This document shows positions 1 through 62,662 of a DNA stretch of 64,000 bases, piece after piece. Each line of letters opens with the position of its first letter. Positions within the stretch are counted from its first letter, which is position 1. Location of the stretch: NCBI GenBank assembly GCA_029582155.1, contig CM055911.1, forward strand, positions 25,431,152-25,495,151, given 5' to 3'. The notes beneath the pieces are model-generated. The model was not told the DNA's origin. It saw only the letters and a program-made list of their open reading frames with translations, and made no database searches. The DNA comes from Panopea generosa (Eukaryota > Mollusca > Bivalvia > Adapedonta > Hiatellidae). The translations under genes and the position numbers were made by a program.

Positions 1-75
1 CCCACGTGATACCACCAGGATTCGAACCTTCAACATCTTGCTTTCGAGGCGGACGCCTTAACGAAGACAACATAT
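1..75 (-). mobile_element. tRNA-derived SINE fragment, cut by window edge
   Basis: Read on the minus strand, the segment holds a pol III B-box-like GGTTCGAATCCTGG and the A-box-side GTCCGCCTCGAAAGC of a tRNA head. The same head type, better preserved, recurs at 44515-44785 and 62960-63227. The rest of the element lies left of the window. Confidence 0.6.
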
Positions 76-89
76 ATCTAATACGTCAC

Positions 90-400
90 CATTACAGTCC
101 CTTTAATTGAAGGTCTCACTACACAGTTAAATTTTGTTCTCAGTTCTTTGTTCTATATAAAATAAGGTACATCTAGAATTTCAACGATAAAAAGAAATTC
201 CAGCTTATGATTTTGAAGACAGTGCAGTGATACCCCTATTTTTCAAATGCTCATTCATCTGCTAAAATCCTTTAAAATTCGCCCAGTGGTGTTTTATTGC
301 AGTATATAATATGTCAGCATTTTCTATAAGTACTTTCAGCAAGTAATCACAACCACCATGAATAATTTTGAAAATATTTCAAACCAAACTACATATGACT
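90..400. repeat. Diverged direct repeat, partner at 5240-5620
   Basis: Several blocks occur in the same order here and at 5240-5620: an ATTTTGTTC...TTTGTTC block, ATAAGGT, AGTGCAGTG, a CTCAT...ATCTG block, AATATAT...ATG, and a run ending near TTTTGAAAA. Identity is moderate, so the duplication is old. The two copies bracket the EF-hand gene at 1240-4012. No exon was recognised in either copy. Confidence 0.5.
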
Positions 401-639
401 TTTTATAAGTGCAAGATTCATGTTACCGTAGCTTAAAAGGGGCGCAACTGTGTAGTGATCCGTTAAAGATAACCATGAGAGCTGTCCAGCGTCAGCAGTA
501 AACTCTAATTGTTTTTTTTGTGGTTTTGTTTTGTTTTGTTTTTTGTATTTTCTCAACTCTAACGAAACCATCATTACATAATCCACTTTTTTATTTTTTA
601 TTTTTATTTGATGTGTTTCAAATCGATTGTGAAACTTTT

Positions 640-813
640 TTTTTACAATTTAGACAAATTACGCTCGAAGTATTTCTGGGTGAACCAGTACTTCAGAATA
701 TTCGGATAAAATGTCCGGCTCAATGACACTACACATATATCCGTGGCTGAGGATCGAACCCACGGCCCTCGGTCTTGGATCTGATGTTTTCCACTGGGCC
801 ACGCGCTCCACAC
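640..813 (-). mobile_element. tRNA-derived SINE, minus strand
   Basis: The tRNA-like head is at 738-813, with the B-box region reading GGATCGAACCCACGG on the plus strand. The body at 640-735 matches the body of the element at 3579-3773 in motif order (AATTAGACAAAT, CCAGT, GGATAAA, CTCAA). A short open frame at 520-726 is this SINE body and not a gene. Confidence 0.65.
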
Positions 814-1239
814 TTATTATCTAGATAACACACATAAGTTTAGACTCTGTCCCACTAGCGGAGCCTTTTCCAACCGGGACCAGTTAACAGCGATTATATT
901 TTATTGTAAGCTTTATTGTAATTTACTATTAAAATTACCGAAAATTTACGTCCCCGCTGCCGTCCTCTGATTAAAATTCTGAATATTAAACTATATGTCC
1001 TTGCATTTAAATAACGTCGGCATATTTTTGAAAAGTGTTAACATAAATAACTAGCCAACACCTAAGCTGTCGAAAGCATTTATTACAGTTATTAAATGGA
1101 GCACATCGGCTCTATTAAAAAGCAAGAATATCTTCCCAAATTGGAAATGATGGGTAATTGTATTTTTACCGTAAATCGGATTTACACAAATACTTTAAAC
1201 CGAAGTTTATCTTGAAAGTGTCGAATTGTCTCTTTTCAG

Positions 1240-1337
1240 GTCGGTACGCAGATTTGCGGAGTACACTATTTGCAAAAATAAAGAATACACAGATTGTCTA
1301 TACAAAGATATAACATACAAACTGTGCTCTCCGGATA
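1240..1337 (+). CDS. EF-hand gene, internal exon with three cysteines
   Basis: The acceptor is TGTCTCTTTTCAG ending at 1239 and the donor is GTAAGT at 1338. The exon is 98 nt, entering at phase 2 and leaving at phase 1. It encodes residues 1-32 with cysteines at 11, 19 and 29 and a basic start (SVRRF). Without splicing the frame runs on to a TAG at 1406-1408; that read-through product has a fourth cysteine, but the strong donor makes it less likely. Confidence 0.68.
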
Positions 1338-4012
1338 GTAAGTTCAATTTTTGTCGTCAATTTCGTATGATCTACGGTGTTCCGTTAAGGTCATCGCGCA
1401 AAAAATAGTTTCAATATAGAAAACACTCAACAACGGAAGAGTCGAAACTGCAAAGCAACAATGATAACGACGATGGTTTAAGGTCGAGCTTTTGTTTCCA
1501 TCGTTGTTTCAGTCTATTACCATCGTTGTTCCAAATTTTATCCATTGAATCGTTTGCCCAACATTTCAATATATTGTTTCGTACTTTCGACTTTTATCAT
1601 CATTTTCCACCTGTTTTATCCCCGTTGTTTTCGCTATCACTTTCACTATCATTTTCACTTAGATTTTGATTTTGATTGTCATTATCATTATCTTGTTCAC
1701 TTCAACTTCCATTGTCATTATTAATATGTTTCAACTTCACTTCAACGTTCACTTTCATTTTCATTTTCATTATTATTATCATTATCCTTATCCCGTCATC
1801 TTTTTCACTTTCTCTCTCATTGTCTCTTTTATTATCACTTTCACTATATCATTAACAGTCTTTTTCACTTCCATTATCACTATATTTCCGTCCTCCATCA
1901 ATTAACTTTTAAAGTTGTGTACACCATAGGATCGGATCTTCACTATACTTATATCTACACAGTAGTTGTGTAACCATACTATCTCGTAAAAGTTATTGAA
2001 CTGAACAAATCGGATGTTTAATATCAGAGTTATGACCCTTGAATCGGTAAACTATGCATTGTTTGAACTTGTGTGCACTCTTAACAATTGCATTTTCCAT
2101 TGGATTGTCACTAAACTGGCACAGTTTTTATATTCATAATAAGCAAGGACATTATTGAACTGGACACATATACTGATCTCAGATTCATCGCTTTTGATTC
2201 ATCAAGCATTGCACTCACTTTCTGATCTTTTGTTCCCTCTGGCATTCGCAATTTTCAGTGAATCTTCACCAATTTTACACAGTATTACTTAATATAAAAG
2301 AATCTTGGATTTTATTGTGAATGGGTTTGACTGACTGATACATTTATATGTTTAGACCCTTGCATTACCAAAAATTACAATTATTTGACGATTTTGAGGC
2401 AAGCATGGCCCTCTTGTTTTAAATTATTGTTATACTTAATTTATCAATTTGTTTATTTATCTACAGAGAACTTCACCGACAAATTAGTGAAACAACTGTG
2501 TAAAACCAAGGGAGACATGTTGGTCCTTTGGGTGTCAACCCTATATGATATAAACGGTAAGTATGAATGTTATTTTATTACACGTGTGCCAGGTGTATAG
2601 ACGGCTTTGTTATGAGATTAACAGTTGTTACCATTACTAAAGCCATATTATTAAATCACTTAAAAAATCAGTTTCGCTTGACTTGCCCCCTTTTCCTTAT
2701 ATACATCAATTTCAATCCAATAGTTCCATTTCGTATCTGAAAAATGTAATTCTTCAGGGGCGAATCCAGGGTTTCAGTTCAGAAGGGGCCGTGACTAAGG
2801 GCGCAATCCAAAATCTGAACGGGCACACGTGTTTTTTCCCCGTAGAAATGTAGTGAATTTTAATAGAATATGGTAATTTACAGTGTGTATGTGGGGGGGC
2901 GTAAGCAGGGTTTTTTGAGAGTATATCCGCCAATGAACTACATGTATCTACCCTTAAATGGTCAAATGGTTAATAATATTTGTCAGAATGTAAGATTATT
3001 GTTATTGTATGGTGTTCAGCACCGCTTTCAACAAAGTTTCAGTCATATTGCGACGGTGTCTACTTGAGACAGTATTGTGAGCGCTGTCCTAGAACTCTCC
3101 TCTAAATGCTGAGCGTCAAGCGAGGAAGCTTTATGTATCATCTTTAAAGTCTTTGGTGTTACCCGGTCCGGGACCGAACTCACGATCTTCAGCATGCGAG
3201 GCGGTTGCTCTACCGCTAGGCGACGCTGAGGTGTAAATGTAAGGAAACGTTTTATTCTACGCACGTTTCATCCAAAGGTATATTTTTGTATTTGTCTTTT
3301 AGTGGTACATAAGAAATTAAACTGATGGAGGTAAGGTTGCTATTTGCTTTTCGTCTTTCGATATTCGATATAACGTAGCTTTTCAATATTGTAGGTGGAC
3401 TTATAAAGGTTTGGGCTATCTTGTTTCAAAGTTTTAAATTGAATACCGAAAGTCGAAAGGCGAATAGCAAACTTACAATAGGTATATCACAAAATTTGGC
3501 AATTGTGTTCTGTAATCTGGACGATTCTTTTTAAGTATGTACATCTATTACGTATAATATTTAAACTTGTTTATTTTACCACGGTTGTGCAACAAGTTCT
3601 TACCAATTAGACAAATCATCAACCTTGATGCCTTGCTTTGTAGAACCAGTGCTAAACATATGTGGATAAAGTGTCTTGCTCAAGGACAACACACACAGCC
3701 GTGGTGGAGGATCAAACCCACTAACCTCCGACCACGGGTCCGATGCTCTACCACTAGACCACGTGCTCCACACGTCTATCAAGTATAGGCGTTTACGAAT
3801 CCTTAAAAAACTGCAGATTCGCAAATATTTTAAATCTGTCTGTCCGTCCGTTTGTATGTCTGTTCGGAAGACAAAATACTATATTTATATTTCCTACTAT
3901 TTTGTGTTTTTCAGAAGACGGGCAACTTTCAGTAGATGAAGAAAACTGCGTCGGATTTCTCAACGAGTGCAGCCAGAACCGGAAACACAAACATAACTTC
4001 TGTAAACCGTAA
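1240..4012 (+). CDS. Small cysteine-rich EF-hand protein, probably secreted (3' three exons)
   Basis: Three exons join in frame: 1240-1337, 2467-2556 and 3915-4012, totalling 286 nt, or 94 residues plus TAA after one nucleotide that completes an upstream codon. Introns run 1338-2466 and 2557-3914; both start GTAAGT, end CAG after pyrimidine-rich tracts, and are phase 1. The spliced product has a canonical 12-residue EF-hand loop at residues 60-71, DINEDGQLSVDE. Acidic or polar ligands sit at loop positions 1, 3, 5 and 9, Gly at 6, Leu at 8 and Glu at 12, and helix-like flanks lie on both sides. The glutamate at loop position 4 exists only after splicing, which supports the gene model. Seven cysteines (residues 11, 19, 29, 44, 74, 81, 92) suggest an extracellular, disulphide-bonded protein. 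The first exon, presumably a signal peptide, was not found and probably lies left of the window; the upstream intron is phase 2. A role in calcium binding is inferred from the loop. I do not recognise a named family. Confidence 0.72.
1610..1905. repeat. Pyrimidine-rich low-complexity tract in intron
   Basis: The stretch consists of loosely repeated TTTCACTT, TTTCATT and ATTATCATT words. It gives a 79-codon open frame made of repeated codons, with no protein features. It lies in the first visible intron of the EF-hand gene. Confidence 0.6.
2467..2556 (+). CDS. EF-hand gene, internal exon: helix E and start of loop
   Basis: The acceptor is TTATTTATCTACAG ending at 2466 and the donor is GTAAGT at 2557. 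The exon is 90 nt, phase 1 at both ends, so it could be skipped or duplicated without changing frame. It encodes residues 33-62, with one cysteine (44), the hydrophobic helix MLVLWVSTLY and the loop start DIN. Confidence 0.7.
2754..2990. mobile_element. Possible hAT-type transposon end or relic
   Basis: The segment starts CAGGGGCGAATCCAGG, which resembles the terminal inverted repeats of many hAT-family elements. A matching right end could not be found, and the right border is a guess. It lies in the second intron of the EF-hand gene. Confidence 0.3.
3005..3231 (-). mobile_element. tRNA-derived SINE, minus strand
   Basis: The tail (GTTCAGCACCGCTTTCAACA, ATATTGCGACGG) comes first on the plus strand and the tRNA head (GGACCGAACTC, GCGAGGCGGTTGCTCTACC) last. 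It belongs to the same family as 6375-6519, 14306-14620, 17677-17950 and 33001-33293. It sits in an intron of the EF-hand gene, antisense to it. The middle of the body is shortened compared with 14306-14620. Confidence 0.75.
3332..3475. mobile_element. Short terminal-inverted-repeat element (MITE-like), 144 bp
   Basis: The left arm begins TAAGGTTGCTATTTGC. The reverse complement of the right arm begins TAAGTTTGCTATTCGC, and the pairing continues for about 38 bases through CTTTCGA(T/C)(A/T)TT. No coding capacity. It lies between the EF-hand gene's second and third visible exons. Confidence 0.6.
3579..3773 (-). mobile_element. tRNA-derived SINE, minus strand
   Basis: The tRNA-like head is near 3700-3773 (GGATCAAACCCAC, GATGCTCTACCACTAGACCAC). 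The body contains AAGTGTCTTGCTCAAGGACA, the kind of conserved central motif seen in metazoan SINE superfamilies. It is the same family as 640-813. Its right end is about 140 bp from the terminal EF-hand exon. Confidence 0.7.
3915..4012 (+). CDS. EF-hand gene, terminal exon with stop codon
   Basis: The acceptor TTTTGTGTTTTTCAG ends at 3914 and TAA is at 4010-4012. Joined to the previous exon, it completes the loop (EDGQLSVDE) and continues with three cysteines in the pattern C-x6-C-x10-C near a His/Lys-rich stretch, ending CKP. The other two frames of this exon are closed early or lack the loop. Confidence 0.7.
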
Positions 4013-4316
4013 CAACCGGTATAGTAGCAGAAATATAGACTTACTAGTGTCGTCCCTAAGGTGGATACACACTTATTTATTGTTGTTTAGAGGACCATAT
4101 TGTTAGTTTGTAAAAAAATATCGACTGTTATACCCTATTTAAGGAACGCTCGACAATGTTGAAGTCATGTTTTACTCATGCTAATGCTTTCAGTATTCAT
4201 TCAATCTTAAAAATACTCAACGATCGTAAAGTCACCTGGAGTTAATACTCAACGTTTACAATACCGCTATCTGACACATCAAAAGAATTAGAAATGTAGT
4301 TTTTTATATGATCATA

Positions 4317-4476
4317 GTCGGTTGCGGTGGTAAAGTGGTTAGAGTGTTAGCCACAGGCGCCAGAGGTTGCGATTTCGATCATTTGCTCGATCCGATACCT
4401 CTCACAAAAACAACACTCAGTCCGGATATTATCCAGAAAGCTAACTCAAGGGCAGTTCATATACGTTAAGCTTTCA
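4317..4476 (+). mobile_element. tRNA-derived SINE, plus strand
   Basis: The head GTTGCGGTGGTAAAGTGGTT resembles a tRNA A-box region. It is followed by CGATACCTCTCACAAAA and AACACTCAGT. The same family is found in reverse at 45165-45319 and 63611-63767. It lies downstream of the EF-hand stop codon. Confidence 0.6.
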
Positions 4477-4851
4477 TTGCAATTGAGCTGAAATTGGTTA
4501 GTATGAATTAATATGATTAAAGTGTATTAAAATTACAAATTAATGATCCCTTTGAATTGCTTTTTCTACCCTACCCGTGAAAACTGATAAAAAACGTATT
4601 TGATAGTGTTTGTTACAGCTGACTACACATAACTGTGCACATTTGGATGAAGCTACAGGAGGGATGCCCGTATTTAAACAAAAATTAAGATAAATGTCTG
4701 CATACATTGGAAGTTTATCCAAATTCCTGATTTCTCACAAATCAGGTCTGTTGTACTCCAACGAAAAAGCCGGGAAATCCATGCCTGTCCAACAATTCAT
4801 AGCACTTTATGACAGAAGACCATCATTGGTTTTTATTCTTTAACTATAGTA

Positions 4852-4857
4852 AATAAA
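4852..4857 (+). promoter_or_regulatory. Candidate polyadenylation hexamer for the EF-hand gene
   Basis: AATAAA lies about 840 bp after the TAA at 4012. In such AT-rich DNA the hexamer is weak evidence by itself. I saw no earlier perfect hexamer downstream of the stop. Confidence 0.25.
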
Positions 4858-5239
4858 TTAGAGTGTGCAGACTTGCCAATCACTGAAGGACCAAAAGGAA
4901 AGAGATGAAGCTTATATTTTATTGTTTGTCAACCTCTGCGCTATCAAAATATGATGCGAAAAGAAGAGGTCATGTAGGGGTCATGTAGGGGTCATGTACA
5001 CTGTTGACAACGTGAAAGTAGACTTCCAAAATCATGTATTCATAACAGTTTCCAAGCAAAATGTTTTTCTGAATTCGCAATTCAAACATGACAATGCTTT
5101 CATAAGGTTAAAACTTCACCAATAATATCAGTCAAATAAAAAAATGAGCATTAAAATAAGGGAACTTCTTTTTTAATAAGAAGAAACAAGGATTATTTAT
5201 AACTGCCATTACACGGACACATGTCAAGTTTCCAATGAT

Positions 5240-7690: not shown

Positions 7691-9430
7691 AAAATAAACA
7701 AGAAATATTACTGGTAAGTGTCATATGCCCTCCAAATTGTCTATGAAAATAACGGTATATTTTATAATAGGTAGCGATTAAAATGTATCCATAAATATCA
7801 AAATTAATGGACTGACGTTTCAGTCCAGTGATGCAATTTCATGTTGATGGTTTTTTTACATTAAAGTGTGACCTTGACCTTGACATCTGATGTAAAGTTT
7901 TTGGTATTTCTACAGGTAAATGCAGGTGACACATCATCATGGCATGCTGATCACTTGTGTCAAGCTATTTTGAAATCCAACCATGTAAGACAAAGTTACA
8001 GACCAGACATATCAAATACCAAATAAATTGATAGTGTGACCTAAACCTTTGAGGTAAGTTTCTGGGTCTTACACACGACACGTTGTCATCATTCGGACCT
8101 CCTCAGGCACTGCTCGCACTTTTTGCGCTTTTTTTGTCCTTCCGCTGCATGTTCGATTCGGAGAATTGAGCGAAGTGTTCCGAATGACGTTGTCATGTCA
8201 TGTCGATCAATCAATCAATTGAACCAAGTGTTTTTAAAATCCATTCATCTATGATAAAGTTACAAACCGGACTTGAAATCTCAAACAAACACAAAGTGTG
8301 ACATTGACTTTTGAGGTACGGTCTGGGTCTTACGTGCGACACGTCGTCTGGTCATCTTGATCAATTGAGCCAAGATAAAGACAAAGTTACAGACCAGACT
8401 CGAAATATCAAACAAATTGTTACCTTGACCTATGAGGAAAGGTTCTGGGTCTTACACCCGACACTTCATCACGTTATGTTGATAAACTGAGTAAGCGTTT
8501 TTAAAATACATCCGTGGATGACAAAGGTAATGACCAAACACGAAATTTTACAGAGACTCAAAAACTCAAAGTGTGACCTTGACATTGGAGGTATGATTGT
8601 GGGTCTTAAGCGCAACATGTCGTCATGCCATGCTGATGAATTGAGCAAAGTTTATTTTAATTTATCGTAGGTGACGAAGTTACCTGCCAGACATGAAATC
8701 TCAAACATATTGAAAGTGTTGTCAAACAAAATCAAAGTGTGGCCTTGACATTTGAATTGGGAGTGTTGGTGTTACACGCGACACGTTCGTCATGTTATTT
8801 TTATCTGTTGTAGCGAGTATCTATAAAATTCATTTATGCATGACAAAGTTACAGGTCGAACACGAAATCTCCCACAGACTCAAAGTTTTGTCAAACAAAC
8901 TCAAAGTGTGAATTTGACCTTTGAGGTATGGATGTGGGTCTTATGTGCAACACATCGTCATGTCATCCTGATAAATTGAGCCACGATGTTTCAACTTTCA
9001 TACATAGGTGACCCAGTTACACACCGGACACAAAATTTTAAAGTGACTGAAAGTGTTGTCAAACAAACAAAGTTAAAATATGGCCTTGAGCTTTGAAGTG
9101 GGAGTCTGGGTTTAAGCGCTACACGTTGTCATGTTATGTTGATCATTTGTAGTAAGTATTCATATAATCAATCTATACATGACAAAGGTACAGGACGGAC
9201 ACGACATTTCACACAGACTCAAAGTGTTGTTAAACAAACTCAAAGTTTGACCTTGACATTTGAGGTACGGGTGTGGGTTTTACGCGCCACATGTCGTCAT
9301 ATCATGCTGATGAATTGAGCTAAATTTATACTTAGGTAACAAAGTTACAGACCGGACACGAAGTCTCAGACTGAAAGTGTCATCAATTAAAGTTAAAGTG
9401 TGACCTTGACCTTTGAAGTAGGAGTCTGGA
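7690..9430. repeat. Diverged tandem repeat of about 110-260 bp units rich in TGACCTTGA
   Basis: About ten successive units share AAAGTGTGACCTTGACCTTT, GGTCTTACGCGCGACAC, CATGTCATGCTGATGAATTG and AAAGTTACAGACCGGACACG. Unit starts lie near 7865, 8033, 8296, 8410, 8574, 8741, 8907, 9074, 9248 and 9398. The same repeat is present at 26700-28440 and, more diverged, at 47270-47938. Short open frames inside it are not conserved as proteins. Confidence 0.75.
8090..8186. mobile_element. 97-bp insertion with 10-bp flanking direct repeat
   Basis: ACGTTGTCAT at 8080-8089 is repeated at 8187-8196, bracketing a segment that interrupts one unit of the surrounding repeat. Its ends are weak inverted repeats (ATTCGGA and TCCGAAT). 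The counterpart in A2 shows it predates the duplication. The transposon class is unknown. Confidence 0.45.
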
Positions 9431-26699: not shown

Positions 26700-28440
26700 A
26701 AATATCACTGGTAAGTGTCATATGCCCTCCAAATTGTCTATGAAAATTACGGTATATTTTATAATAGGTAGCGATTGAAATGTATCAATAAATATCAAGA
26801 TTAATGGACTGACGTTTCAGTCCACACATGCAATTTCATGTTGATGTTTTTTTTTACATTAAAGTGTGACCTTGACCTTGACACCTGATGTAAAGGTCTT
26901 GGTATTTCTACAGGTAAATGCAGGTGGCACATCATCATGGCATGTTGATCACTTGTGTCAAGCTATTTTGAAATCCATCCATGTAAGACAAAGTTACAGA
27001 CCAGACATATCAAATACCGAATAAATTGATAGTGTGACCTAAACCTTTGAGGTAAGTTTCTGGGTCTTACACATGACACGTTGTCATCATTCGGACCTCC
27101 TCAGGCACTGCTCGCACTTTTTGCGCTTTTTTTTTTGTCCTTCCGCTGCATGTTCGATTCGGAGAATTGAGCGAAGTGTTCCGAATGACGTTGTCATGTC
27201 ATGTTGATCAATCAATCAATTGGACCAAGTGTTTTTAAAATCCATTCATCTATGATAAAATTACAAACCAGACTTGAACTCTCAAACAAACACAAAGTGT
27301 GACATTGACCTTTGAGGTACGGTCTGGGTCTTACGTGCGACACGTCGTCATGTCATCTTGATCAATTGAGCCAAGATAAAGACAAAGTTAGACCAAACTC
27401 GAAATATCAAACAAATTGTTACCTTGACCTATGAGGAAAGGTTCTGGGTCCTACACCCGACACTTCATCACGTTATGTTGATAAATTGAATAATCGTTTT
27501 TATACATCCGTGTATGACAAAGGTAATGACCAAACACGAAATTTCACAGAGACTCAAAAACTCAAAGTGTGACCTTGACATTGGAGGTATGATTGTGGGT
27601 CTTAAGCGCAACATGTCGTCATGCCATGCTGATGAATTGAGCAAAGTTTATTTTAATTTATCGTAGGTGACGAAGTTGCCTGCCAGACATGAAATCTCAA
27701 ACATATTGAAAGTGTTGTCAAACAAAATTAAAGTGTGGCCTTGACATTTGAATTGTGAGTCTTGGTGTTACGCGCGACACGTTCGTCATGTTATTTTTAT
27801 CTGTTGTAGCGAGTATCTATAAAATCCATTTATGCATGACAAAGTTACAGGTCGAACACGAAATCTCCCACAGACTCAAAGTTTTGTCAAACAAACTCAA
27901 AGTGTGAATTTCACCTTTGAGGTATGGATGTGGGTCTTATGTGCAACACATCGTCATGCCATCCTGATAAATTGAGCCACGATTTTTCAACTTTCATACA
28001 TAGGTGACCCAGTTACACACCGGACACAAAATTTTAAACAGACTGAAAGTGTTGTCAAACAAACAAAGTTAAAATATGGCCTTGAGCTTTGAAGTTGGAG
28101 TCTAGGTGTTAAGCGCTACACGTTGTCATGTTATGTTGATCATTTATAGTAAGTATTCATATAATCGATCTATACATGACAAAGGTACAGGACGGACACG
28201 ACATTTCACACAGACTCAAAGTGTTGTTAAACAAACTCAAAGTGTGACCTTGACATTTGAGGTACTGGTGTGGGTCTTACGCGCGACATGTCGTCATATC
28301 ATACACATGAATTGAGCTAAACTTATACGTAGGTAACAAAGTTAGAGACCGGACACGAAGTCTCAGACTGAAAGTGTCATCAATTAAAGTTAAAGTGTGA
28401 CCTTGACCTTTGAAGTAGGAGTCTTGATGTTACGCGATTT
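26700..28440. repeat. TGACCTTGA-rich diverged tandem repeat, A2 copy
   Basis: Unit order matches 7690-9430, including the 97-bp insertion flanked by ACGTTGTCAT (about 27073-27180). The differences from A1 are few and scattered. Confidence 0.75.
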
Positions 28441-35748: not shown

Positions 35749-36231
35749 CCTGATGATGCAGTTTCAACAAGCTGTGACGGAGTACAGGGCGCTCCGTTTT
35801 TTAAGGTTGTCTAAAGACATGAGCTTTCGAATGACAGAGAACTGGACATAGAGCAGGTTCGATCCAAGGTTTAACTCAATGGCCCTTAAAAAGATATAAT
35901 TCACACTGGTTCTAGCCAGGGAACGGACCGCCTTATATTCATTAGTATTTAGCAATATTGAACGGTTGACGCCGTCGATGACAACGATGGTGTAGACTGA
36001 TGACAAATATGTAACATATAGAACAAAAATTATTTGTAATCATTTTCTAACGTACTCAAAAACAGTGCGTTCTCTGCATAAAATGAAAGGAATGAATGAG
36101 TGAATGGAGTTTTACGGCGTAACAACGCATTGTAGGTTATTCGACGCCAACAGGAAGGAAGATTCCAGACTCACTCTACATGTAAATACAACAAATTACC
36201 ATACAGATTAAAATAATACACCAACAAATGA
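35749..36231. other. Right end of A2, no gene seen
   Basis: It matches 20045-20492 plus a 28-bp A2-only insert. An 80-codon minus-strand frame at 35764-36006 has no recognisable features. Confidence 0.35.
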
Positions 36232-38565
36232 GCCTGGCAGATAATGGTAATATAGTGATAATGTCTGCCTTGAGACTGGCAGATGGTGGTAATATAGCGA
36301 TAATGTCTGCCTTGAGACTGGCAGATGGTAGTAATATAGTGATAATGTCTGCATTGAGCCTGGCAGATGGTGGTAATATAGTGATAATGTCTGCCTTGAG
36401 ACTGGCAGATGGTAGTAATATAGTGATAATGTCTGCATTGAGCCTGGCAGATGGTGGTAATATAGTGATACTGTCTGCCTTGAGACTGGCAGATGGTGGT
36501 AATATAGTGATAATGTCTGCCTTGAGCCTGGCAGATGGTGGTAATATAGCGATAATATCTGCATTGAGTCTTGCAGATGGTAGTACTATAGTAATAATGT
36601 CTGTCTTGAGCCAAGCAGATGGTGGTAATATAATGATAATTTCTGCTTTGAGCCTGGCAGATAGTAGTAATATAGTAATAATGTCTGTCTTGAGCCTGGC
36701 AGATGGTGGTAATATAGTTATAATGTCTGCCTTGAGCCTGGTAGAAAGTGGTAATATAGTGATTATGTCTGCCTTGATCCTGGAAGATGGTGGTAATATA
36801 ATGATAATGTCTGCATTGAACCTGGCAGATAGTGGTAATATAGTGATTATGTATGCCTTGAGCATGGCAGATGGTTGTATTATATTGATAATGTCTGCAT
36901 TGAACCTGGCAGATGGTGGTAATACGTGTATAGTGATAATGTCTGCATTGAGCCTGGCAGATGGTAGTAATGTAGTAATAATGTCTTCCTTGAGCTTGGC
37001 AGATGGTAGTGATATAGTGATAATATCTGCATTGAACCTGGCAGATGGTGGTTATATAATGATAATGTCTGCCTTGAGCCTGGCAGATGGTGGTAATATA
37101 ATGATAATGCCTCCAAATTAGCCTGGCAGATGGTAGTAATATAGTAATAATGTCTGTCTTGAGACTGGCAGATGGTGGTAATATAATGATAATGTCTACC
37201 TTTAGCTTGGCAGGTGGTGGTAATTTAATGATAATGTCTGCCTTGAGCCTGGCAGATGATAGTTATATAGTGATAATGTATGTCTTGAGCCTGGCAGATG
37301 GTTGTATCATAGTGATTCTCTCTGCATTGAGCCTTGTAGAAGATGGTAATGTAGTGACATTGTCTGCCTTGAGCCTGGTAGATGGAAGTATTATATTGAT
37401 AATGTCTGCATTGAGCCTGGTAGAAAGTGGTAATATAGTGATAATGTCTGCCTTGAGCCTGACAGATGGTGGTAATATAGTGATAATGTATGCCTTGAGC
37501 CTGGCAGATGGTTGTATTATATTGATAATGTTTGCATTGAGCCTGGCAGATGGAAGTTATATAATGATAATGTCTGTTTTGAGCCTTGCAGATGGTTGTA
37601 TCATAGTGATAATGTCTTCCTAGAGCCTGAGCCTGGCAGATGGTGGTAATTTCGTGATAATGTCTGCCTTGAACCTGACAGACGGTGGTAATAAAGTGAT
37701 AATGTCTGCATTGATCCTGGCAGATGGTGGTAATATAGTGAAATTTTTTGCCTTGAGCCTGGCAGATGGTAGTAATAAAGTGATAATGTCTGCATTGAAC
37801 CTGGCAGATGGTGGTAATATAGTGATAATGTCTGCCTTGAACCTGGTAGATGGTGGTTATATAGTGATAATGTCTGCCTTGAGCCTGGCAGATGGTAGAA
37901 ATATAGTGACAATGTCTTCCTTGAGCCTGGCAGATGGTGGTAATATAGTGATAATATCTGTCTAGAGCCTTGCAGATGGTAGTAATAAAGTTATAAAGTC
38001 TGTCTTGAGCCTTGTTGATGATGGTAATGTAGTTATAATGTCTGCTTTGAGTCTGGCATATTGTAGTAGTATAATGATTTTGTCTGACTTGAGGATGGTA
38101 TATGGTAGTTATATATTGAAAAAGTCTGCCTTGAACCTGGTTGATGATAACAATATAGTGACAATGTCTGCCTTGAGCCTTGCAGATGGTGGAAATATCT
38201 TAATAATGTCTGCATTGAGCCTGGTTGATGGTGGTAATATAGTGATAATATCTGCATTGAGCCTGACAGATTGTGGTAATATAGTGACACTATCTGGCTT
38301 GAGCCTGGCAGATGATGGTTATGTAGTGACACTGTCTGCCTTGAGCCTTGCAGATGGTGGTTAATATAGTCAGAATGTCTGCCTATATTCAGGCAGTTGT
38401 TGTAATATATTAATAAAGTCTGCTTTGAGCCGAACAGATGTCTGTTAAATATAGTGATAATGTCTGTCTTGAGCCTAATATAGTGATAATGTATGTCTTG
38501 ATCCTGGTAGATGGTGGTTAATATAGTGATAATGTCTGCCTTGAACCTGAAAATGGTGGTCATAT
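36231..38565. repeat. 42-bp satellite array, about 56 units
   Basis: Unit GAGCCTGGCAGATGGTGGTA followed by ATATAGTGATAATGTCTGCC and TT. Because 42 is a multiple of three, frames stay open on both strands for hundreds of codons (LADGGNIVIMSALS on plus; ADIITILPPSARLK and SLYYHHLPGSRQTL on minus). Stops and frame changes are scattered, so it is not a protein gene. Units differ by about 5-20%. Confidence 0.92.
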
Positions 38566-41485
38566 AACAGTTATACCGTTAGCACGATATTCAACATGGC
38601 TGTGTACCTTTAATACAACTATAAATAGCTATACCGTTAACAAGATATTCAACATAACAAGTGTACCTTTAAAACAACTGAAAACAGTTATAGCGTTAAC
38701 AAAATATAAAATGGTGGGTTTACCTTTAATACATCTTTAAATAGTTATACCCTTAACAAAATATACAACATGGCGGGTGTACCTTTAATACATCTGAAAA
38801 CAGTTATACCCTTAACAAGATATATAACATGGCGGGTGTACCTTTAATACAACTGAAAACAGTTATACCCTTAACAAGATATACAACATGGCGGATGTTC
38901 CTTTAATACAACTGTAAACAGTTATACTGTTAATACGATACTCTATATGGCGGGTGTACCTTTAATTCAACAGAAAACAGTAATACCGTTAACAAGATAT
39001 ACAACATGACGGGTGTACCTTTGATACAACTGAAAACAGTAATATTGTTAACAAGATATACATCATGGCGGGTGTACCTTTAATACAACTGTAAACAGTT
39101 ATACCGTTAAAACGATATTCAACACGGCGGTTGTACCTTTAATACAACTGTAAACAGTTATACTGTTAACAAGATATTCAACACAGCGAGTGTACCTTTA
39201 ATACAACTATAAACAGTCATACCGTTAACACGATATTCAACACAGCAAGTGTACCTTTAATACAACTGTTAACAGTAATACCATTAACAAGATATTCAAC
39301 ACGGCGGGTGTACCTTTAAAACAACAGTAAACAGTTATACCGTTAACAAGATATTCAACACGGCGTGTGTACCTTTAATACAACTATAAACAGTTAGACC
39401 GTTAACAAAATATTCAACACGGCGGGTGTACCTTTAATACAACTGTAAACAGTTAAACTGTTAACAAAATATTCAACACGGCTGGTGTACCTTTAATACA
39501 ACTGAAAACAGCTATACCATTAACACGATATTCAACACGGCGGGTGTACCTTTAATACAACTGTAAACAGCTAATCAGTTAACAAGATATTCAACACGGC
39601 GGGTGTACCTTTAATACAACTGTAAACAGTTATACCGTTAAAACGATATTCAACACGGCGGTTGTACCTTTAATACAACTGTAAACAGTAATACCATTAA
39701 CAAGATATTCAACACGGCGGGTGTACCTTTAATACAACAGTAAACAGTTATACCGTTAACAAGATATTCAACACGGCGTGTGTACCTTTAATACAACTAT
39801 AAACAGTTAGACCGTTAACAAAATATTCAACACGGCGGGTGTACCTTTAATACAACTGTAAACAGTTATACTGTTAACAAAATATTCAACACGGCTGGTG
39901 TACCTTTAATACAACTGAAAACAGCTATACCATTAACACGATATTCAACACGGCGGGTGTACCTTTAATACAACTGTAAACAGCTAATCAGTTAACAAGA
40001 TATTCAACACGGCGGGTGTACCTTTAATACAACTGTAAACAGTCATACCGTAAACAAGATGTTCAACACGGCGGGTGTACCTTTAATACAACTGAAAACA
40101 GCTATACCGTTAACACGATATTCAACACGGCGGGTGTACCTTTAATACAACTGTAAACACCTAAACCGTTAACAAGATATTCAACACGACGGGTATACCT
40201 TTAGTACAACTGTAAACAGTTATACCGTTAAAACGATATTCAACACGGCGGTTGTCCCTTAAATACAACTGTAAACAGTTATACCGATAACAAGATATTC
40301 AACACAGCGAGTGTACCTTTAATACAACTCTAAACAGTCATACCGTTAACACGATATTCAACACAGCGAGTGTACCTTTAATACAACTGTAAACAGTTAT
40401 ACCGTTAACACGATATTCAACACGGAGGGTGTACCTTTAATACAACTGTAAACAGCTCTACCGTTAACACGATATTCAACACAGCGGGCGTACCTTTAAT
40501 ACAACTGTTAACAGTTATACCGTTAACAAAATATTCAACATGGCGGGTATACCTTTAATACAACTGAAAACTGTTATACCGTTAACATGATATTCAACAC
40601 GGCGGGCGTACCTTTAATACAACTGTTAACAGTTATACCGTTAACAAAATATTCAACACGGCCGGTGTACCTTTAATACAACTGAAAACAGCTATACCGT
40701 TAACACGATATTCAACACGGCGGGCGTACCTTTAATACAACTGAAAACAGTCATACCGTTAACATGATATTCAATACGGCGGATGTACCTTTAATACAAC
40801 TGTAAACAGTTATACCGTTAACAAGATATTCAACACAGCGAGTGTACCTTTAATACAACTGTAAACAGTCATATCGTTAACATGATATTCAACATGGCGG
40901 ATGTACATTTAATACAACTGTAAACAGTTATACCGTTAAAATGATATTCAACACAGTGGGTGTACCTTTAATACAACTGTAAAGAGCTATACCGTTAACA
41001 AGATATTCAACACAGCGAGTGTACCTTTAATACAACTGTAAACAGTTATACCGTTAACACGATATTCAACACGGCGGTTGTACCTTTAATACAACTGTAA
41101 ACAGTTATACCATTAACAAGATATTCAACACAGCGAGTGTACCTTTAATACAACTCTAAACAGTCATACCGTTAACACGATATTCAACACAGGGAGTGTA
41201 CCTTTAATACAACTGTAAACAGTTAGACCGTTAACAAGATATTCAACACAGCGGGCGTACCTTTAATACTATTGTAAACAGTTATACCGTTAACAAAATA
41301 TTGAACATGGCGTGTGTACCTTTAATACAACTGTAAACAGTTAGACCGTTAATAAAATATTCAACACGGCGGGTGTACCTTTAATATAACTGTAAACAGT
41401 CATACCGTTAACACGATATTCAACACAGCGGGTGTACCTTTAATACATCTGTAAACAGTCATACCGTTAACAATATATCCAACAT
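38566..41485. repeat. 59-bp satellite array, about 49 units
   Basis: Unit CAGTTATACCGTTAACAAGA then TATTCAACACGGCGGGTGTA then CCTTTAATACAACTGTAAA. Local higher-order repeats exist, e.g. a 413-bp (7-unit) spacing between the CGGCGTGTGTACC variants at 39361 and 39774. Most units contain GTTAAC and TTAATAC. The array ends in CCAACATGAAAC..GAATAATT, as does the second array. Confidence 0.92.
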
Positions 41486-43807: not shown

Positions 43808-44329
43808 AACAGAAATACATAAAAGTGTAAATATACGGCCCAAGCCATATTCTATAAAGTTAGTTTTTGTAAGAAAAACAAATATGTGGGTGGGCTCAAT
43901 TAAATCAATCTTCATTTTCCATTTTATTTTTTTTTAAATTGTTTCATTAAATAAATGCAAATATAAAGTAAAAAATATCAACAGGGGTGAGCCAGTACGC
44001 GCTTTTTCGCAACCGTGAATCAATTGTGCGCTTTCTGCTCCCCGTGTATAGTGTCCATATAACTGTTCCAGTATTATTAATACAATATGGTCCATCTTTG
44101 GTATAATATCGTAGATTGCTTAGTCATGAAATTCTGGCAACACACTTATGGCGTGGTATATTGTATTTTGCTGCATTGACATAAATGTAGATTAAAATCA
44201 AATATGAGATACAATAATTTTGAACAGCTACTCTCTCCTGCAATCCAGCGTATTTGCATCGCAATTTGACGCACATCAACATGTGTTTATCAACAATGCA
44301 AACACTATCCAAATATAACGTAAACACTG
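43808..44329. other. Non-coding DNA, no gene seen
   Basis: Matches 61581-62128 in B2, which has a poly-C rich insertion near 61811-61850. A 73-codon minus-strand frame at 44124-44345 has no supportable features. Confidence 0.35.
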
Positions 44330-44487
44330 CGATTTGGGAACACAATCCAAACCCAATTCATATACAATGTTACCGCTGAGATTTGAGAACACAATCCAAT
44401 ATAATTAAACACAACGATTTGAGAACACAATTCAAACACAATTCAAATACAATTAAACACTACGATTTGAGAACACAATTTAAATAC
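44330..44487. repeat. 48-bp minisatellite, short allele in B1
   Basis: Units built from GATTTGAGAACACAATTCAA, ACACAATTCAAATACAATTA and AACACTAC. About three to four units here against about nine to ten in B2 (62130-62575). Confidence 0.8.
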
Positions 44488-48438: not shown

Positions 48439-51400
48439 GGAAGTTATAATATAGTGATAATGTCTACATTGAGTCTGACATATGGTGGTAATATAGTGAT
48501 ATTCTCTGCCTTGAGCCTGGCAGATTGTGGTAATATAGTGATAATGTCTGTCTTGAGCCTAGCAAATGGTGGTAATATAGTGGTAATGTCTGCCTTGAGC
48601 CTGGCAGATGGCGATAATAGAGTGGTTATGTCTGCCTTGAGACTGGCAGATGGTGGTAATATAGAGATAATGTCTGACTTGAGCCTGGTAGATGGTGGTA
48701 AAATAGTGATAATGTCTGCCTTGAGCCTGACAGATGGTGGTAATATAGTGATAATGATTGTCTTGAGCCTGAAAATGGTGGCAATAAAGTGATAATGTCT
48801 GCATTGATCCTGGCAAGTGGTGGTAAAATAGTGAATATGTATGCCTTGAAGCTGACAGATGGTGATAATATAGTGATAATGTCTGCCTTGAGCCTTGCAG
48901 ATGGTAGTAATATAGTGATTATGTCTGCCTTGAGGTTGGCGAATAGTGGTAATATAGTGATAATGTCTGCCTTCGGTCTGGCAAGTGGTGGCAATAAAGT
49001 GATAATGTCTGCATTGAGCCTGGCAGATGATGGTAATATAGTGATAATGTTTGTCTTGAGCCTGGCAAATGGTGGTAAGATAGTGATAAAGTCTGCCTTG
49101 AGCCTGGCAGATGGTGATAATATAGAGATGAAGTCTTCCTTGAACCTGACAGATGGTGGTAACATAGTGATACTGTTTGCCATGAGCCTGTCAGAAGTTG
49201 GTAATATAGTGATAGTTTCTTCATTGAGCCTGGCAGATGGTAGTAATATAGTGATAATACCAGTATTGAGCCTGGCAGATGGTGGTAATACAGTGATAAT
49301 ATCTGCCATGAGCCTGGCAGATGGTAGTATTATAGTGATAATGTATGTCTTGAGCCTGGCAGATGGTAGTAATAAAGTAATGATATCTGTCTTGAGCCTT
49401 GCATATGGTGGTAATATAGTGATAATGTCTGCCTTGAGTCTGGCAGATGGTATTAATAAAGTGATAATGTCTGCCTTGAGCCTGGCAGAGGGTTGTATTA
49501 TATTGATAATGTCTGCCTTGTGCCTGGCAGATGGTATTAATGAATTGATATTATCTGCATTGAACCTGGCAGATGGTAGTAATATAGTGATAATGTCTGC
49601 CTTGTGTCTGGCAGATGGTATTAATAAAGTGATAATGTCTGCCTTGAGCTTGGCAGATGGTTGTATTGTATTGATAATGTCTGCCATGAGCCTGGCAGAT
49701 GGTATTAATAAAGTGATAATGTCTGCCTTGAGCCTGGCAGATGGTAGTTATATAGTGATAATGTCTGCCTTGAGCCTTGTAGATGGTTGTATCTTAGTGA
49801 TAACGACTGCTTAGAGCCTGGAAGATAGTGGTATTATATTGATAATGCCTTCTTTGAGCCTTGAAGATGGTTGTATCATAGTGACAATGTCTGCCTTGAG
49901 CCTGGCAGATGGTGGTTAATATAGTGATAATGTCTGCATTCAGCCTGGCAGACGGTAGTAATATAGTGGTTATGTTTGCCTTCAGCCTGGTTTATGGTGG
50001 TAATATAGTAAAAATGTCTGCATTGAGCCTGGCAGATGGTGGTAATATAGAGGTAAAATTTGCTTTCAGCCTGGTTTAAGTTGGTAATTTAATGATAATG
50101 TCTGCATTGAGCCTGGCAGATGGAAGAAATATAGTGATGATGTCTGCCTAGAGTCTGGCATATGGTGGTAATATAGTGATAATGTTTGCATACAGTCTGT
50201 CAGATGGAAGTAATATAGTAATACTGTCTGCCTAGGGCCTGGCAGATGGTGGTAATATAGTAATAATGTCTGCCTTGAGGATGGCAAATGGTGTAAAATA
50301 GTGATAATATCTGCATTGAGCCTGGCAGATGGTGATAATATAGTGATAATGTCTGCCTTTAGCCTGTCAGATGGTCGTAGTATAGTGATAATGTCTGCCT
50401 TGAGCCTTGCAGATGGTTGTTTTATATTGAAAATGTCTGCCTTGAGCCTGGCAGATGATGGTAATACAGTGATAATGTCTGTCTGGAGCCTAACAGATGG
50501 TGGTAATATAGTGATAATGTTTTTTTCTTGAACTTGGCCAATGGTTGTACTATAGGGATAATGTCTGCATTGAGCCAGGCAGATGGTGGTAATTTTATTG
50601 ATAATGTCTTTCATGAGCCTGGCAGATGGTTGTGTTATATCGATAATGTCTGCATTGAGCCTGGCAGATGGTGGTTATATAGTGATACTGTCTGCTTTGA
50701 GCCTGGCAAATGGTGGTAATATAGTGATACTGTCTGCTTTGAGCCTGGCAGATGGTTATATTATATTAATAATGTGTGCCTTGAGCCTGGCAGATAATGG
50801 TTATGTAGTGATAATGTCTGCCTTGAGCCTGACAGATGGTAGTAATATAATGATAATATCTGCATTGAGCCTGGCAGATGGTAGTAATATAGTGATAATG
50901 TCTGCCTTGAGCCTGGCAGATGGTGATGTAGTGATAATATCTGCCTTGAGCCTGGCAGATGGTAGTAAAATAGTGATAATGTCTTCCTTGAGCCAGGTTG
51001 ATGATGGTAATGTAGAGATAATGATTGTGGCAATATATTGATAGTATCTGCATTGAGCCATGTAGATGGTAGTAATATAGTAATAATGTCTGTCTTGAGC
51101 ATGGCTGATATTGGTAATATAGCGATAATGTCTGCATTGAGCCTGGCAGATTGTTGTTCTATATTGATAATGTCTGCCTAGAGCCTGGCAGATAGTAATA
51201 ATTTAGTAATAATGTCTGCATTGAGCCTGGCAGATGGTGGTTATATAGTAATAATATCTGCATTGAGCCTGGCAGATGGTGGTAATATAGGAATAATGTC
51301 TTCCTTGCATCAGACAGATGATGGTAATATAGTGATAATGTCTGCATTTAGCCTGGCAGATTGTTGTACTATATTGATAATGTCTGCCTAGAGCCTGGCA

Positions 51401-54227
51401 GATAGTATTACTTTAGTAATAATGTCTGCATTGAGCCTGGCAGATGGTGGTTATATAGTTATAATATCTGCATTGAGCCTGTCAGATGGTGGTTATATAG
51501 TAAAAATGTCTGCATTGAGCCTAGCAGATGATAGTAATATAGTGACAATGTCTGCCTAAAGCCTAGTAGATGGTAGTAATATAGTGATAATGTCTGCCTT
51601 GAGCCAGGCAGATGGTGTTAATAAAGTGATAATGTATGCCTTGAGCCTGGCAAATGGAGGTAATATAGTGATACTGTTTGCCTTGAGCCTGGCAGATGGT
51701 GATAATATAGTGATAATGGCTGCCTTGAGCCTGGTAAATGGTTGTATTATATTAATACTGTCTGCCTTGAGCCTGGCAGATGGTGGTAATATAGTGATAA
51801 AGTCTGCCTTGAGCCTTGCAGATAGTTGTATCATAGTGATAATGTCTGCCTAGAGCCTGGCAGATGGTGGTAATATAATGAAAATGTCTGCCTTGAGCCT
51901 GGCAGATGGTGATACTATAGTGATAATGTCTGCAATGAGCCTGGCAGATGGTTGTATTATATTGATACTGTCTGCATTGAGCCTGGCAGATGGTGGTAAT
52001 ATAGTGATAATGTCTGCCTTGAGCCTTGCAGATAGTTGTATCATAGTGATAATGTCTGCCTAGAGCCTGGCAGATGGTGGTAATATAATGATAATATCTG
52101 TCTTGAACCTGGCAGATGGTGGTAATATTTTAATAATGTCTGCAATGAGCCTGGCAGATGGTTGTATTATATTGATACTGTCTGCATTGAGCTTGGCAGA
52201 TGGTGGTAATATAGTGATAATGTCTGCCTTGAGCCTTGCAGATAGTTGTATCATAGTGATAATGTCTGCCTAGAGCCTGGCAGATGGTGGTAATATAATG
52301 ATAATATCTGTCTTGAACCTGGCAGATGGTGGTAATATTTTAATAATGTTTGCATAGAGCCTGGCAGATGGTAGTAATATACTGATTATATCTGCCTTGA
52401 GCCTGGTAGATAATAGTAATATAATGATAATGTCTGCATTAAGCATGGCATATGGTAGTTATATAGTGATAATGTCTGCCTTGAGCCAGGCAGATGGTGC
52501 TAATATAGTGATAATGTATGCCTTGAGCCTGGCAAATGGTGGTTATATAGTGATACTGTTTGCCTTGAGCCTGGCAGATGGTGATAATATAGTGATAATT
52601 GCTGCCTTGAGCCTGGTAGATGGTTGTATTATATTAATACTGTCTGCCTTGAGCCTGGTAGATGGTGGCAATATAGTGATAATGTCTGCCTTGAGCCTTA
52701 CAGATGGTATTAATATAATGATGATATCTGCCTTGAGCCGGACAGATGTAGTAATATAGTTATAAAATCCGTCTTTAGCCTGGTAGATGATGGTAATATA
52801 GTAATAATATCTGCCTTGAGCCTGGCAGACGGTTGTTATATAGTGATAATGTCTGCCTTGAGCCTTACAGATTATATTAATATAATGATGATATCTGCCT
52901 TGAGCCGGACATATGTAGTAATATAGTGATGAAATCCGTCTTGAACCTGGTAGATGATGGTAATATAGTGATAATTTCTTCTTTTAGCCTGGCATATGAT
53001 AGTAATATAGTGATAATATCTGCATTGAGCCTGGTTGATAATAATAATATAGTGGTAATACCTGCCTTGAGCTTTGTTGATGATGATAATATAGTGATAA
53101 TGTCTGCTTCGAGCCTAACTGATGGTAATAATATAGTGATAATATCTGGCTTGAGCCTGGTTGATAAGAGTAACATAGTGACACTGTCTGCCTTGAGCCT
53201 GGCAGATGGTAGTAGTATAGTGATACTATCTGCCTTGAGCCTTGTAGACTATGGTAATGTAGTGATAATGTCTGCCTTGAGCTTGGCAGATGGTTGTAAT
53301 ATAGCGATTAAATCTCCCTTGAGCCTGGTTGATGATAGTAATTAAACGATAATGTCTGCCTTGAGCCAGGCAGATAATGGTTATGTAGGATATTGTCTGC
53401 CTTGCCTGACAGATGGTAGTTATATAGTAATAATATGTTCCTTGAGCCTGGTTGATATTAATAATATAATAATAGTGTCTGCATTGAGCCTTCCAGATGA
53501 TGGTAATATAGTGATAATGTCCGTCTTGAGCCAGGCAGATGGTAGTTATATAGTGATTATATCTGCCTTGAGCCTGACAGATGGGAGTAATAAAGTGATA
53601 AAGTCTGTCTTGAGCCTTGTTAATGAATGTAATATAATGATTTTGTCTGCATTGAGCGTGGCAGATGGTAGTTATATATGGAAAAAGTCTGCCTTGAACA
53701 TGGTTGATGATAGCAATATAGTGATACTGTCTGCCTTGAGCCTGGCATATGGTGGTAATATCGTGATAAAGTCTGCATTGAGCCTGACAGATTGTTGTAA
53801 TATAGTGATAATGTCTGCCTTGAGCCTGGCAGATGGTAGTAATATAGTGATAATATCTACCTTGAGCCTTGCAGATTTTGGTAATATAGTGATAATATCT
53901 GCCTTGAGCCTGACAGATTGTGGTAATATAGTGACATTATCTGGCTTTGAGCATAGCAGATGATGGTTATGTAGTGACTCTGTTTGCCTTGAGCCTGGCA
54001 GATTGTGGAAATGTTGTGACTCTGTCTGCCTTGGACCTGGCAGATGGTGGTTAATATATTCATAATGTTTGCCTAGAGACAGGCAGATGGTGGTAATATA
54101 TTGATAAAGTCTGCCTGGAGCCGGACAGATGTCGTATAAATATAGTGATAATATATGTCTTGAACATGGTAGATTGTGGTTAGTATAGTGATAATGTCTG
54201 CATTGAACCTGGGAATGGTGATTATAT
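48439..54227. repeat. 42-bp satellite array, about 138 units
   Basis: Same unit as 36231-38565. A clear higher-order repeat of five units (210 bp) runs through 51.1-52.3 kb: AATGTCTGCCTAGAGCC recurs at 51841, 52051 and 52261, each with the same unit order around it. The open frames (up to 353 codons) are interrupted at the same unit in each higher-order repeat by TAG. Confidence 0.92.
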
Positions 54228-54606
54228 ACCAGTTATACCGTTACCACGATATTCAACCTGGCTGATGTAACTTTAATACACATGAGAACAGTTATACCGT
54301 TCACAAGATATCCAACATGGCAGTGTACATTTAATACAACTATAAATAGTTATACTTTTAACAAGATATTCAACATAGCAAGTGTACCTTTAATACAATT
54401 AAAAACAGTTATAGCGTTAACAAGATATAAAATGGCGGGTGTACCTTTAATACATCTGTAAACAGTTATACCCTAAACCATATATACAACATGGCGGGTG
54501 TACCTTTAATACAACTGAAAACAGTTATAGCCTTAACAAGATATACAACATGGCGGGTGTATTTTAATACAACTGTAAACAGTTATACCATTAACAAGAT
54601 ATTCAA

Positions 54607-57600: not shown

Positions 57601-59091
57601 CGTTAACAAGATATTCAACACGGCGGGTGTACCTTTATTACAAATGTAAGCAGTTATACCGTTAACAAGATATTCAACACGGCGGGTGTAACTTTAATAC
57701 AACTGTAAAGAGTTCTACCGTTAACAAGATATTCAACACGGCGGGTGTACCTTTGATACAACTGTAAACAGTTCTACCGTTAATACGATATTCAACACAG
57801 TGGGTGTACTTTTAATACAACTGTAAACAGTTATACCGTTAACACGATATACAACACGGTGGGTGTACCTTTAATACAACTGAAAACAGTATACCGTTAA
57901 AACGATATTCAACACAGCGGGTGTACCTTTTAAACAACTGTAAACAGTATACCGTTAACAAGATATTCAACACGGCGGATGTACCTTTAATACAACTGAA
58001 AACAGTTATACCCTTAACAAGATATACAACATGGCGGGTGTACCTTTAATACAACTGAAAACAGTAATACCGTTAACACGATATTTAACACGGCGGGTGT
58101 ATTTTAATACAACTGTAAACAGTTATATACCGTAAAACCGATATTCAACATGGCGGGTGTACTTTTATTGCAACTTTAAAAAGTTATACACTTAACACGA
58201 TATTCAAAACGGCAGGTGTACCTTTAATACAACTGTAAACAATTATACCGTTAACAAGATATTCAACACGGCAGGTGTACCTTTAATACAACTAAAAACA
58301 GTTATACCGTTAATAAGATATAAAATGGCGGGTGTACCTTTAATACATCTGTAAACAGTTATACCCTTAACCATATATACAACATGGCGGGTGTACCTTT
58401 AAAACAACTGAAAACAGTTATAGCCGTAACAAGATATACAGCATGGCGGGTGTCCCTTTAATACAACTGAAAACAGTAATACCGTTAACAAGATATATAA
58501 CATGGTAGGTGTACCTTTGATAAAACTGAAAACAGTTATACCCTTAACAAGATATACAACACTTCGGGTGTACATTTAATACAACTGTAAACAGTTATAT
58601 ATACCGTAGAATTGATCTTCAACATGGCGGGTGTACTTTTATTACAACTGTAAACAGTTATACAGTTAACACGATATTCAACACGGCAGGTGTACCTTTA
58701 ATACAACTGTAAACAGTTATACCGTTAACAAGATATTCAACACGGCGGGTGTACCTTTATTACAAATGTAAGCAGTTATACCGTTAACAAGATATTCAAC
58801 ACGGCGGGTGTAACTTTAATACAACTGTAAAGAGTTCTACCGTTAACAAGATATTCAACACGGCGGGTGTACCTTTGATACAACTGTAAACAGTTCTACC
58901 GTTAATACGATATTCAACACAGTGGGTGTACTTTTAATACAACTGTAAACAGTTATACCGTTAACACGATATACAACACGGTGGGTGTACCTTTAATACA
59001 ACTGAAAACAGTATACCGTTAAAACGATATTCAACACAGCGGGTGTACCTTTTAAACAACTGTAAACAGTATACCGTTAACAAGATATTCA
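54607..59091. repeat. Higher-order repeat, 1121 bp (19 x 59), four copies
   Basis: The landmark CACGGCGGATGTACC occurs at 54607, 55728, 56849 and 57971, at spacings of 1121, 1121 and 1122. Copies are nearly identical. Copies 2-4 share variants that copy 1 lacks (GTTAATAAGATATAAAATGG against GTTAACAAG..., TATACAGCATGG against TATACAACATGG), so they arose from one another after the first split. The extra base in the third period is a GGCGG to GGCGGG change. Confidence 0.93.
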
Positions 59092-62575: not shown

Positions 62576-62662
62576 GATTTGATGCCTCATAAATTGTTGA
62601 TTACGAGAAAAAAAAGTAACAAACCGACACATATGCTTGTCAACCATACGACAGTTTTTAAT

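Follow-up and report, generated by a model that had tools for sequence, protein, structure and literature searches.

A candidate family of secreted prepropeptides with a single, intron-split EF-hand loop on one chromosome of the bivalve Panopea generosa

The window considered here is a stretch of 64,000 nucleotides (nt) from the bivalve Panopea generosa (assembly GCA_029582155.1, contig CM055911.1, positions 25,431,152 to 25,495,151 of the forward strand). Close to its left end lie three exons, named a to c, of a small gene whose spliced product carries an EF-hand-type loop. The window appears to hold all but the first of the gene's four exons, the first (exon 0) being one for a signal peptide and pro-region that would precede exon a. 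Copies of the gene on the window contig (C18) are lettered A to H where they form a tandem array, the window copy being E, and I to R where they are diverged loci. The features, numbered from the first nucleotide of the window, are as follows.

1240..1337, plus strand: exon a, 98 nt; acceptor CTCTTTTCAG, donor GTAAGT; entered in phase 2 and left in phase 1; product SVRRFAEYTICKNKEYTDCLYKDITYKLCSPD
1286..1297, plus strand: YTDC codons of exon a, giving the seventh cysteine; six copies (A, B, C, D, F, G) have 9 nt fewer here, and the codons otherwise occur only in H
1338..2466, plus strand: intron 1, phase 1, 1129 nt
2467..2556, plus strand: exon b, 90 nt, phase 1 to phase 1; acceptor ATCTACAG, donor GTAAGT
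2467..2556, plus strand: exon b product, NFTDKLVKQLCKTKGDMLVLWVSTLYDIN plus the first base of loop codon 4
2469..2477, plus strand: NFT N-glycosylation sequon, in 8/8 array copies
2547..2556, plus strand: first part of the EF-hand loop, D1, I2, N3 and the first base of codon 4
2557..3914, plus strand: intron 2, phase 1, 1358 nt; cuts the EF-hand loop between positions 3 and 4
3915..4012, plus strand: exon c, 98 nt including the TAA at 4010-4012; acceptor GTTTTTCAG; product EDGQLSVDEENCVGFLNECSQNRKHKHNFCKP followed by the stop
3915..3940, plus strand: second part of the EF-hand loop, from the remainder of codon 4 through E12
4852..4857, plus strand: AATAAA, the first 3' of the stop, a putative polyadenylation signal

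The sequence-only reading, a note made from the letters of this stretch, had proposed these three exons with their borders and phases, a product of 94 residues with seven cysteines, and the TAA stop, and all of these details were confirmed. In the spliced product, the loop DINEDGQLSVDE is completed across the junction of exons b and c. An EF-hand loop comprises 12 residues, with calcium ligands at positions 1, 3, 5 and 12, glycine at position 6 and a hydrophobic residue at position 8, and DINEDGQLSVDE conforms to this structural pattern.

The genome of the animal itself (1.47 Gb, 39 contigs) was searched with the 94-residue product, yielding seven further copies on the window contig. The resulting array of eight spans 25.12-25.56 Mb; within the window itself, a tblastn search with the 94 residues detected the gene only once. 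Exons a to c with GT-AG borders, phase-1 introns and an EF-hand loop over the second junction are present in all eight copies, and in each of them the splice sites are intact and the exons free of frameshifts. Exon a measures 98 nt in E and H and 89 nt in the other six copies, while exon b measures 90 nt throughout; internal exon length differences within the array number two, of 9 and 15 nt. Similarity extends to introns and flanks, where window positions 1-5200 gave 22 aligned pieces with 68-98.5% identity (17 of them above 88%), so that the array copies are best seen as recent tandem duplicates, a likeness that alone is no proof of function. Among short intron indels, those with a length that is not a multiple of three made up 16 of 18 between B and E, 11 of 12 between C and F, 6 of 7 between D and H, 6 of 10 between D and F, 2 of 3 between E and H, and 1 of 2 between B and G.

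Older relatives were reached through copy A, which as a query gave a weak match at 18.44 Mb of the same contig (E 5.9). This match leads to the diverged gene I, in which the exon arrangement is the same. Its exon a has 98 nt; exon b, of 90 nt, ends at a phase-1 donor directly behind loop position 3, and exon c supplies the rest of the loop DINDDDHISYLE. In a single BLASTP comparison, array copy D and the older member I share 37% identity over 73 amino acids (E 4e-16). Gene I and a second diverged gene, each used as a query, led to one and the same set of ten loci (I to R), every one of them on C18 (15.6, 18.3-18.5, 24.3, 27.3 and 52.7 Mb). Matches on other contigs are weak, with best E-values of 0.685 and 1.22 for the diverged queries, 0.879 for the 94 residues and 6.97 for copy A; these are left aside in the family size, which amounts to at least 18 copies on the window contig. 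Exon a is 98 nt long at 10/10 diverged loci, and exon b is 90-105 nt long at the nine recovered by exon scan; that of Q, with the donor GTTAGT, was read by eye. The split loop was recovered in 17 of the 18 copies (8/8 in the array, 9/10 among the diverged loci). In the latter it reads DINDDDHISYLE, DIDDNNRVSYFE, DSNGDGFISYSE, DADGDGYISYYE, DIDGNGFISYFE, DIDGDGSISYFE and DIDGDGYISYFE, with DIDGDGYISYSE and DVNGDGFISYFE in two more. An alignment of nine of the 18 copies contains 12 invariant columns, including three cysteines, a WV pair, loop D1 and loop E12; R, which is absent from this alignment, lacks the second cysteine. In a tree of 15 copies (without F, H and Q), the six array copies included form one clade. 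The window copy is one of eight recent tandem copies within an older family spread along one chromosome.

The junction was also measured against chance. Every GTRAGT donor was paired with every YAG acceptor 60-5000 nt downstream over the whole window and on both strands, pairs touching N being counted without a score. A strict EF-hand loop across the junction occurred in one of 4,938 pairs (3,474 on the plus and 1,464 on the minus strand), namely the claimed junction, and in none of 4,217 pairs of the reversed window. At eight diverged loci the loop was completed by 8 of 57 usable acceptors, the doubtful one of J included, against a background of 1 in 94 in reversed or reverse-complemented sequence. 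For loops with the ending [IV]SYxE, the corresponding numbers were 7/57 and 0/94. The diverged loci with their split loops, together with the acceptor control, are the strongest evidence for the splice sites chosen in the sequence-only reading. Its proposal of a real spliced gene, with an EF-hand-type loop made whole by splicing, is upheld by the chance control and by paralogs that keep the exons.

A signal-peptide exon ending in phase 2 had been predicted upstream of exon a; it was found in relatives, none being readable in the window copy. No such exon was found in positions 1-1239 of the window, because its place, by analogy with C and D, reads N. All six older members that were read upstream (I, K, L, M, N and O) have a signal-peptide-like exon with a phase-2 end. 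A homologous exon 0 is present in five of the eight array copies, recognised by pattern in D, C and A (broken in the last) and by genome search in B and G. An N-terminal signal peptide in frame was accordingly read in I, K, L, M, N, O, B, C, D and G. These calls were made from hydropathy and reading frame, that of N after the threshold had been lowered. In K, M and O, the frame was chosen by its nearness to exon a, its phase and a shared motif just past the signal part. This motif is G[FYH][IV][VI] in K, N, O and L, GYVL in I, and looser in M. The donor of exon 0 is GTAAGT in K, N and O, GTAAAT in L, GTACGT in M and GTAGGT in I. The corresponding site of the five array copies is GCAAGT, correctly phased and apparently the donor of a GC-AG intron; the junction with exon a was judged by homology with the GT donors of relatives. 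No convincing candidate for an extra exon between exon 0 and exon a was found. By eye, a TATA-like box lies ahead of the ATG in array copies. RXXR sites precede exon a in I, K, N and O and are missing in L, M and D. The extracellular nature proposed earlier for the product gains support from the signal-peptide-like phase-2 exons of relatives and from the NFT sequon shared by the eight array copies.

The identity of the loop was assessed against curated models. D1 and E12 are kept in 17/17 recovered loops and G6 in 15 of these (not in I and K); position 9 is isoleucine in A. The PROSITE EF-hand pattern has a hydrophobic residue at position 13. In recovered members this position is occupied by E, K or R and departs from the pattern. 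When a profile of the family was compared with the PDB, the best 60 of 214 chains all belonged to EF-hand proteins or complexes, and the aligned part was the loop. In a genome-wide scan with EF-hand_1, in which 150 of 611 candidates were scored, 136 matches were listed, one of them on the window contig and none at the family loci. Many of the matches listed cluster on another contig, C4, between 5.6 and 92.7 Mb, and these clusters are possibly calmodulin-like arrays. By its loop letters the product would thus qualify as an EF-hand, with scores below the curated membership cut-offs.

The number of cysteines varies more than the loop does. The sequence-only reading had treated seven cysteines as the design of the peptide, which does not hold for the family, as this count occurs only in E and H and lies between 2 and 6 elsewhere. 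Exons a to c encode six in A, C, D and F, five in B and G with their early stop, three in most older members, and two in R as far as it was read. The C-terminal tail is longer in the array, with up to three more cysteines; the older members recovered end about 8 residues past the loop, and L about 20. The seventh cysteine comes with a 9-nt in-frame difference exclusive to E and H. The idea that these 9 nt are a pure novelty was dropped, since exon a of the older members is also 98 nt long. The longer exon a of E and H equals the family length, the direction of change being not proven.

The best reading of the product is a secreted prepropeptide with one C-terminal EF-hand, and this account as a whole is considered probable, with room for doubt. 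The product would run from a signal peptide through a short pro-region, bearing RXXR in some relatives, and a cysteine-bearing segment to the EF-hand loop at the C-terminus. The loop would bind calcium outside the cell and act as a structural staple that locks two flanking helices. A staple is likelier than a switch, as the calcium-rich body fluid would keep the loop loaded all the time. EF-hands are nearly always paired. Disulphides, perhaps together with dimer formation, would stand in for the usual second EF-hand, and the lone loop combined with an odd number of cysteines suggests pairing between two molecules. The sequence itself shows the gene structure, the family, the signal-peptide-like exons of relatives and the kept ligand positions of the loop; secretion, cleavage of the pro-region, the helices, the disulphides, calcium binding, dimers and any role are inferred.

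A number of observations weigh against this account and have to be set beside the rival explanations. The Pfam EF-hand models (EF-hand_1, _5, _6 and _7) have no match in the six of eight array copies that were scanned, nor in I and K. In L, M, N and O they match only below threshold (E 0.0009-0.01), the best scores being 20.0 bits in L against a cut-off of 30 and 18.4 in M against 25.4; these scans covered A to F, I and K to O. The E-values of the PDB profile comparison are 0.01 or worse, and no partner EF-hand is visible. J lacks an exon c with the [IV]SYxE ending common to the other nine, its sole candidate being without it. Several signal-like frames exist per locus in K, M and O, and the choice among them was made without a chance control. 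The missing Pfam match is the sole point in favour of a chance origin, in which splice-like sites would have yielded a spurious EF-hand motif; with one junction among 4,938 pairs, an architecture kept at 17 other loci and diverged paralogs that in our view refute it, this explanation retains next to no probability. More weight is due to decay, according to which the window copy is a deteriorating duplicate, possibly along with most of the array at 25 Mb, and only the older members work. Exon 0 of A carries a repeat, by eye a SINE-like (short interspersed element-like) insertion, and intron 1 of the same copy holds a retroelement-like frame. A TGA stops B and G early and removes their last cysteine, the cysteine number of E and H is odd, and the first exon of the window copy is unread, runs of N occurring in the DNA upstream of E, F and H. 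Estimates of constraint fall on both sides. A codon model gave an omega of 0.42 for the seven array copies without A (p = 0.011 against an omega of 1), with exon 0 included for the four copies in which it is intact. For exons a to c alone, p was 0.026 without A and 0.011 for C, D, E, F and H. With all eight copies, A included, omega is indistinguishable from 1 (p = 0.29). Nonsynonymous divergence (dN) in the array is not consistently below intron divergence (0.022 vs 0.057 for C-D, 0.053 vs 0.063 for B-D, 0.023 vs 0.021 for D-E). C-D is the strongest dN/dS pair (9 synonymous and 5 nonsynonymous changes), and, having been picked from 28 pairs, is not to be read alone. Against decay stand the omega below 1 without A, the splice sites kept and exons a to c free of frameshifts in 8/8 copies despite many short intron indels, and the intact state of C, D and F over exons a to c and of C and D in exon 0. 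Decay is regarded as unlikely, though as a possibility of some substance.

Other rivals accept a working secreted product and differ in its role. A signalling precursor akin to the pleurin precursor of Helix lucorum, which would be secreted and combine bioactive peptides with an EF-hand region, would share the plan of a signal peptide, a pro-region with RXXR (I, K, N, O) and an EF-hand part; as the exon-0 part is the least alike region of the family alignment and neither an amidation site (G followed by K or R) nor PRXG occurs in any of the seven pro-regions checked, such a role is improbable. A calcium-handling part in the shell matrix, in mucus or in haemolymph, along the lines of the link with shell fluid or mucus suggested in the sequence-only reading, is rather unlikely as well, just one loop being present per molecule, although two papers tie extracellular EF-hand proteins to shell formation in pearl oysters (PMC3120837, PMC7810044). 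The array is recent, bears lesions and changes its cysteines, which may hint at a rapidly evolving function, for instance in defence, mucus or reproduction. Within the preferred account of a secreted prepropeptide, it is proposed tentatively, doubt somewhat outweighing confidence, that the lone split EF-hand at the C-terminus is the functional core of an extracellular ligand or matrix protein which is small, disulphide-bonded and perhaps dimeric. The prepropeptide family would then be one without a matching Pfam model of its own, multiplied on one chromosome while its cysteine number drifted (2 or 3, 5, 6, 7).

Further observations concern the surroundings of the copies. Copy A lies at C18:25121238-25126700, and its exons diverge from those of C about twice as much as the introns do (39/270 against 139/1,880 sites; Fisher p 0.0002). 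The frame in its intron 1 (L036:5820-6350) is open in frame with the end of exon a, and we take it to be a LINE-like (long interspersed element-like) endonuclease starting with a 2A-like motif, DIETNPGP. Upstream of H, a 590-residue open frame (L035:3-1772, minus strand) has a best Pfam match of E 0.021, below the cut-off. A 33-bp minisatellite, threonine-rich in one frame, occurs some kilobases upstream of several copies (L009, L033, L036, and L038 with L032) and belongs to the duplicated unit. Its interpretation as a mucin-like exon was ruled out, because several frames are open and the frame changes inside single copies. In the window itself, like tandem-repeat arrays are paired at 8562-9320 and 27558-28297, 36229-38566 and 48447-54228, 38566-41484 and 54230-59441, and 44301-44486 and 62088-62582, which suggests large internal duplications. 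Transfer RNA and Rfam scans of the window gave no matches, an NCBIfam search no useful match, and a search of viral contigs no relatives.

An intron cuts the EF-hand loop in 17/17 recovered members, and exon-by-exon or six-frame motif scans can therefore miss the family. Annotation that rests on exon-level matches may overlook such peptides. The family also provides a set of related forms in which to ask how an EF-hand without a partner could function extracellularly and how cysteine frameworks are gained.

No such family is described in the open-access literature searched, and the closest known systems each share only part of its features. Calcineurin B, NCS-1 and calmodulin are cytosolic proteins with several EF-hands. 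Their residues before and in the loop align with the family, the likeness being limited to the loop region with E-values of 0.01 or worse. SPARC, on record in abalone, is described as a secreted glycoprotein that binds calcium and contains an EF-hand, together with a Kazal-type domain and 13-14 conserved cysteines (PMC10817941). SPARC resembles the family in being secreted, in its EF-hand and in its many cysteines, and differs from it by the Kazal-type domain and the 13-14 conserved cysteines; no SPARC domain model was among the matches listed in the Pfam scans of family members. For the pleurin precursor gene of Helix lucorum, the title of Bogdanov et al. 1998 reportedly names an EF-hand motif region. 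The EF-hand region of the snail gene is the point of likeness and the PRXamide peptides the point of difference, the two systems being set apart by their descriptions. Pleurin is described as a neuropeptide precursor, with pleurins in Aplysia, oyster and slug (PMC8398477; PMC7749107). PRXamide peptides with amidation sites were found in 0/7 pro-regions of the family. Huang et al. 2007 are said to call EFCBP of Pinctada fucata extracellular in their title. EFCBP and PFMG1-like proteins are likewise bivalve EF-hand proteins that are extracellular or in part possess a signal peptide. According to the literature, EFCBP has two EF-hands and some PFMG1-like EF-hand proteins carry signal peptides (PMC3120837, PMC6337334, PMC7810044). 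By these descriptions, the two EF-hands of EFCBP contrast with the one loop of the present family, which has an RXXR pro-region in some members, all matches found lying on one contig.

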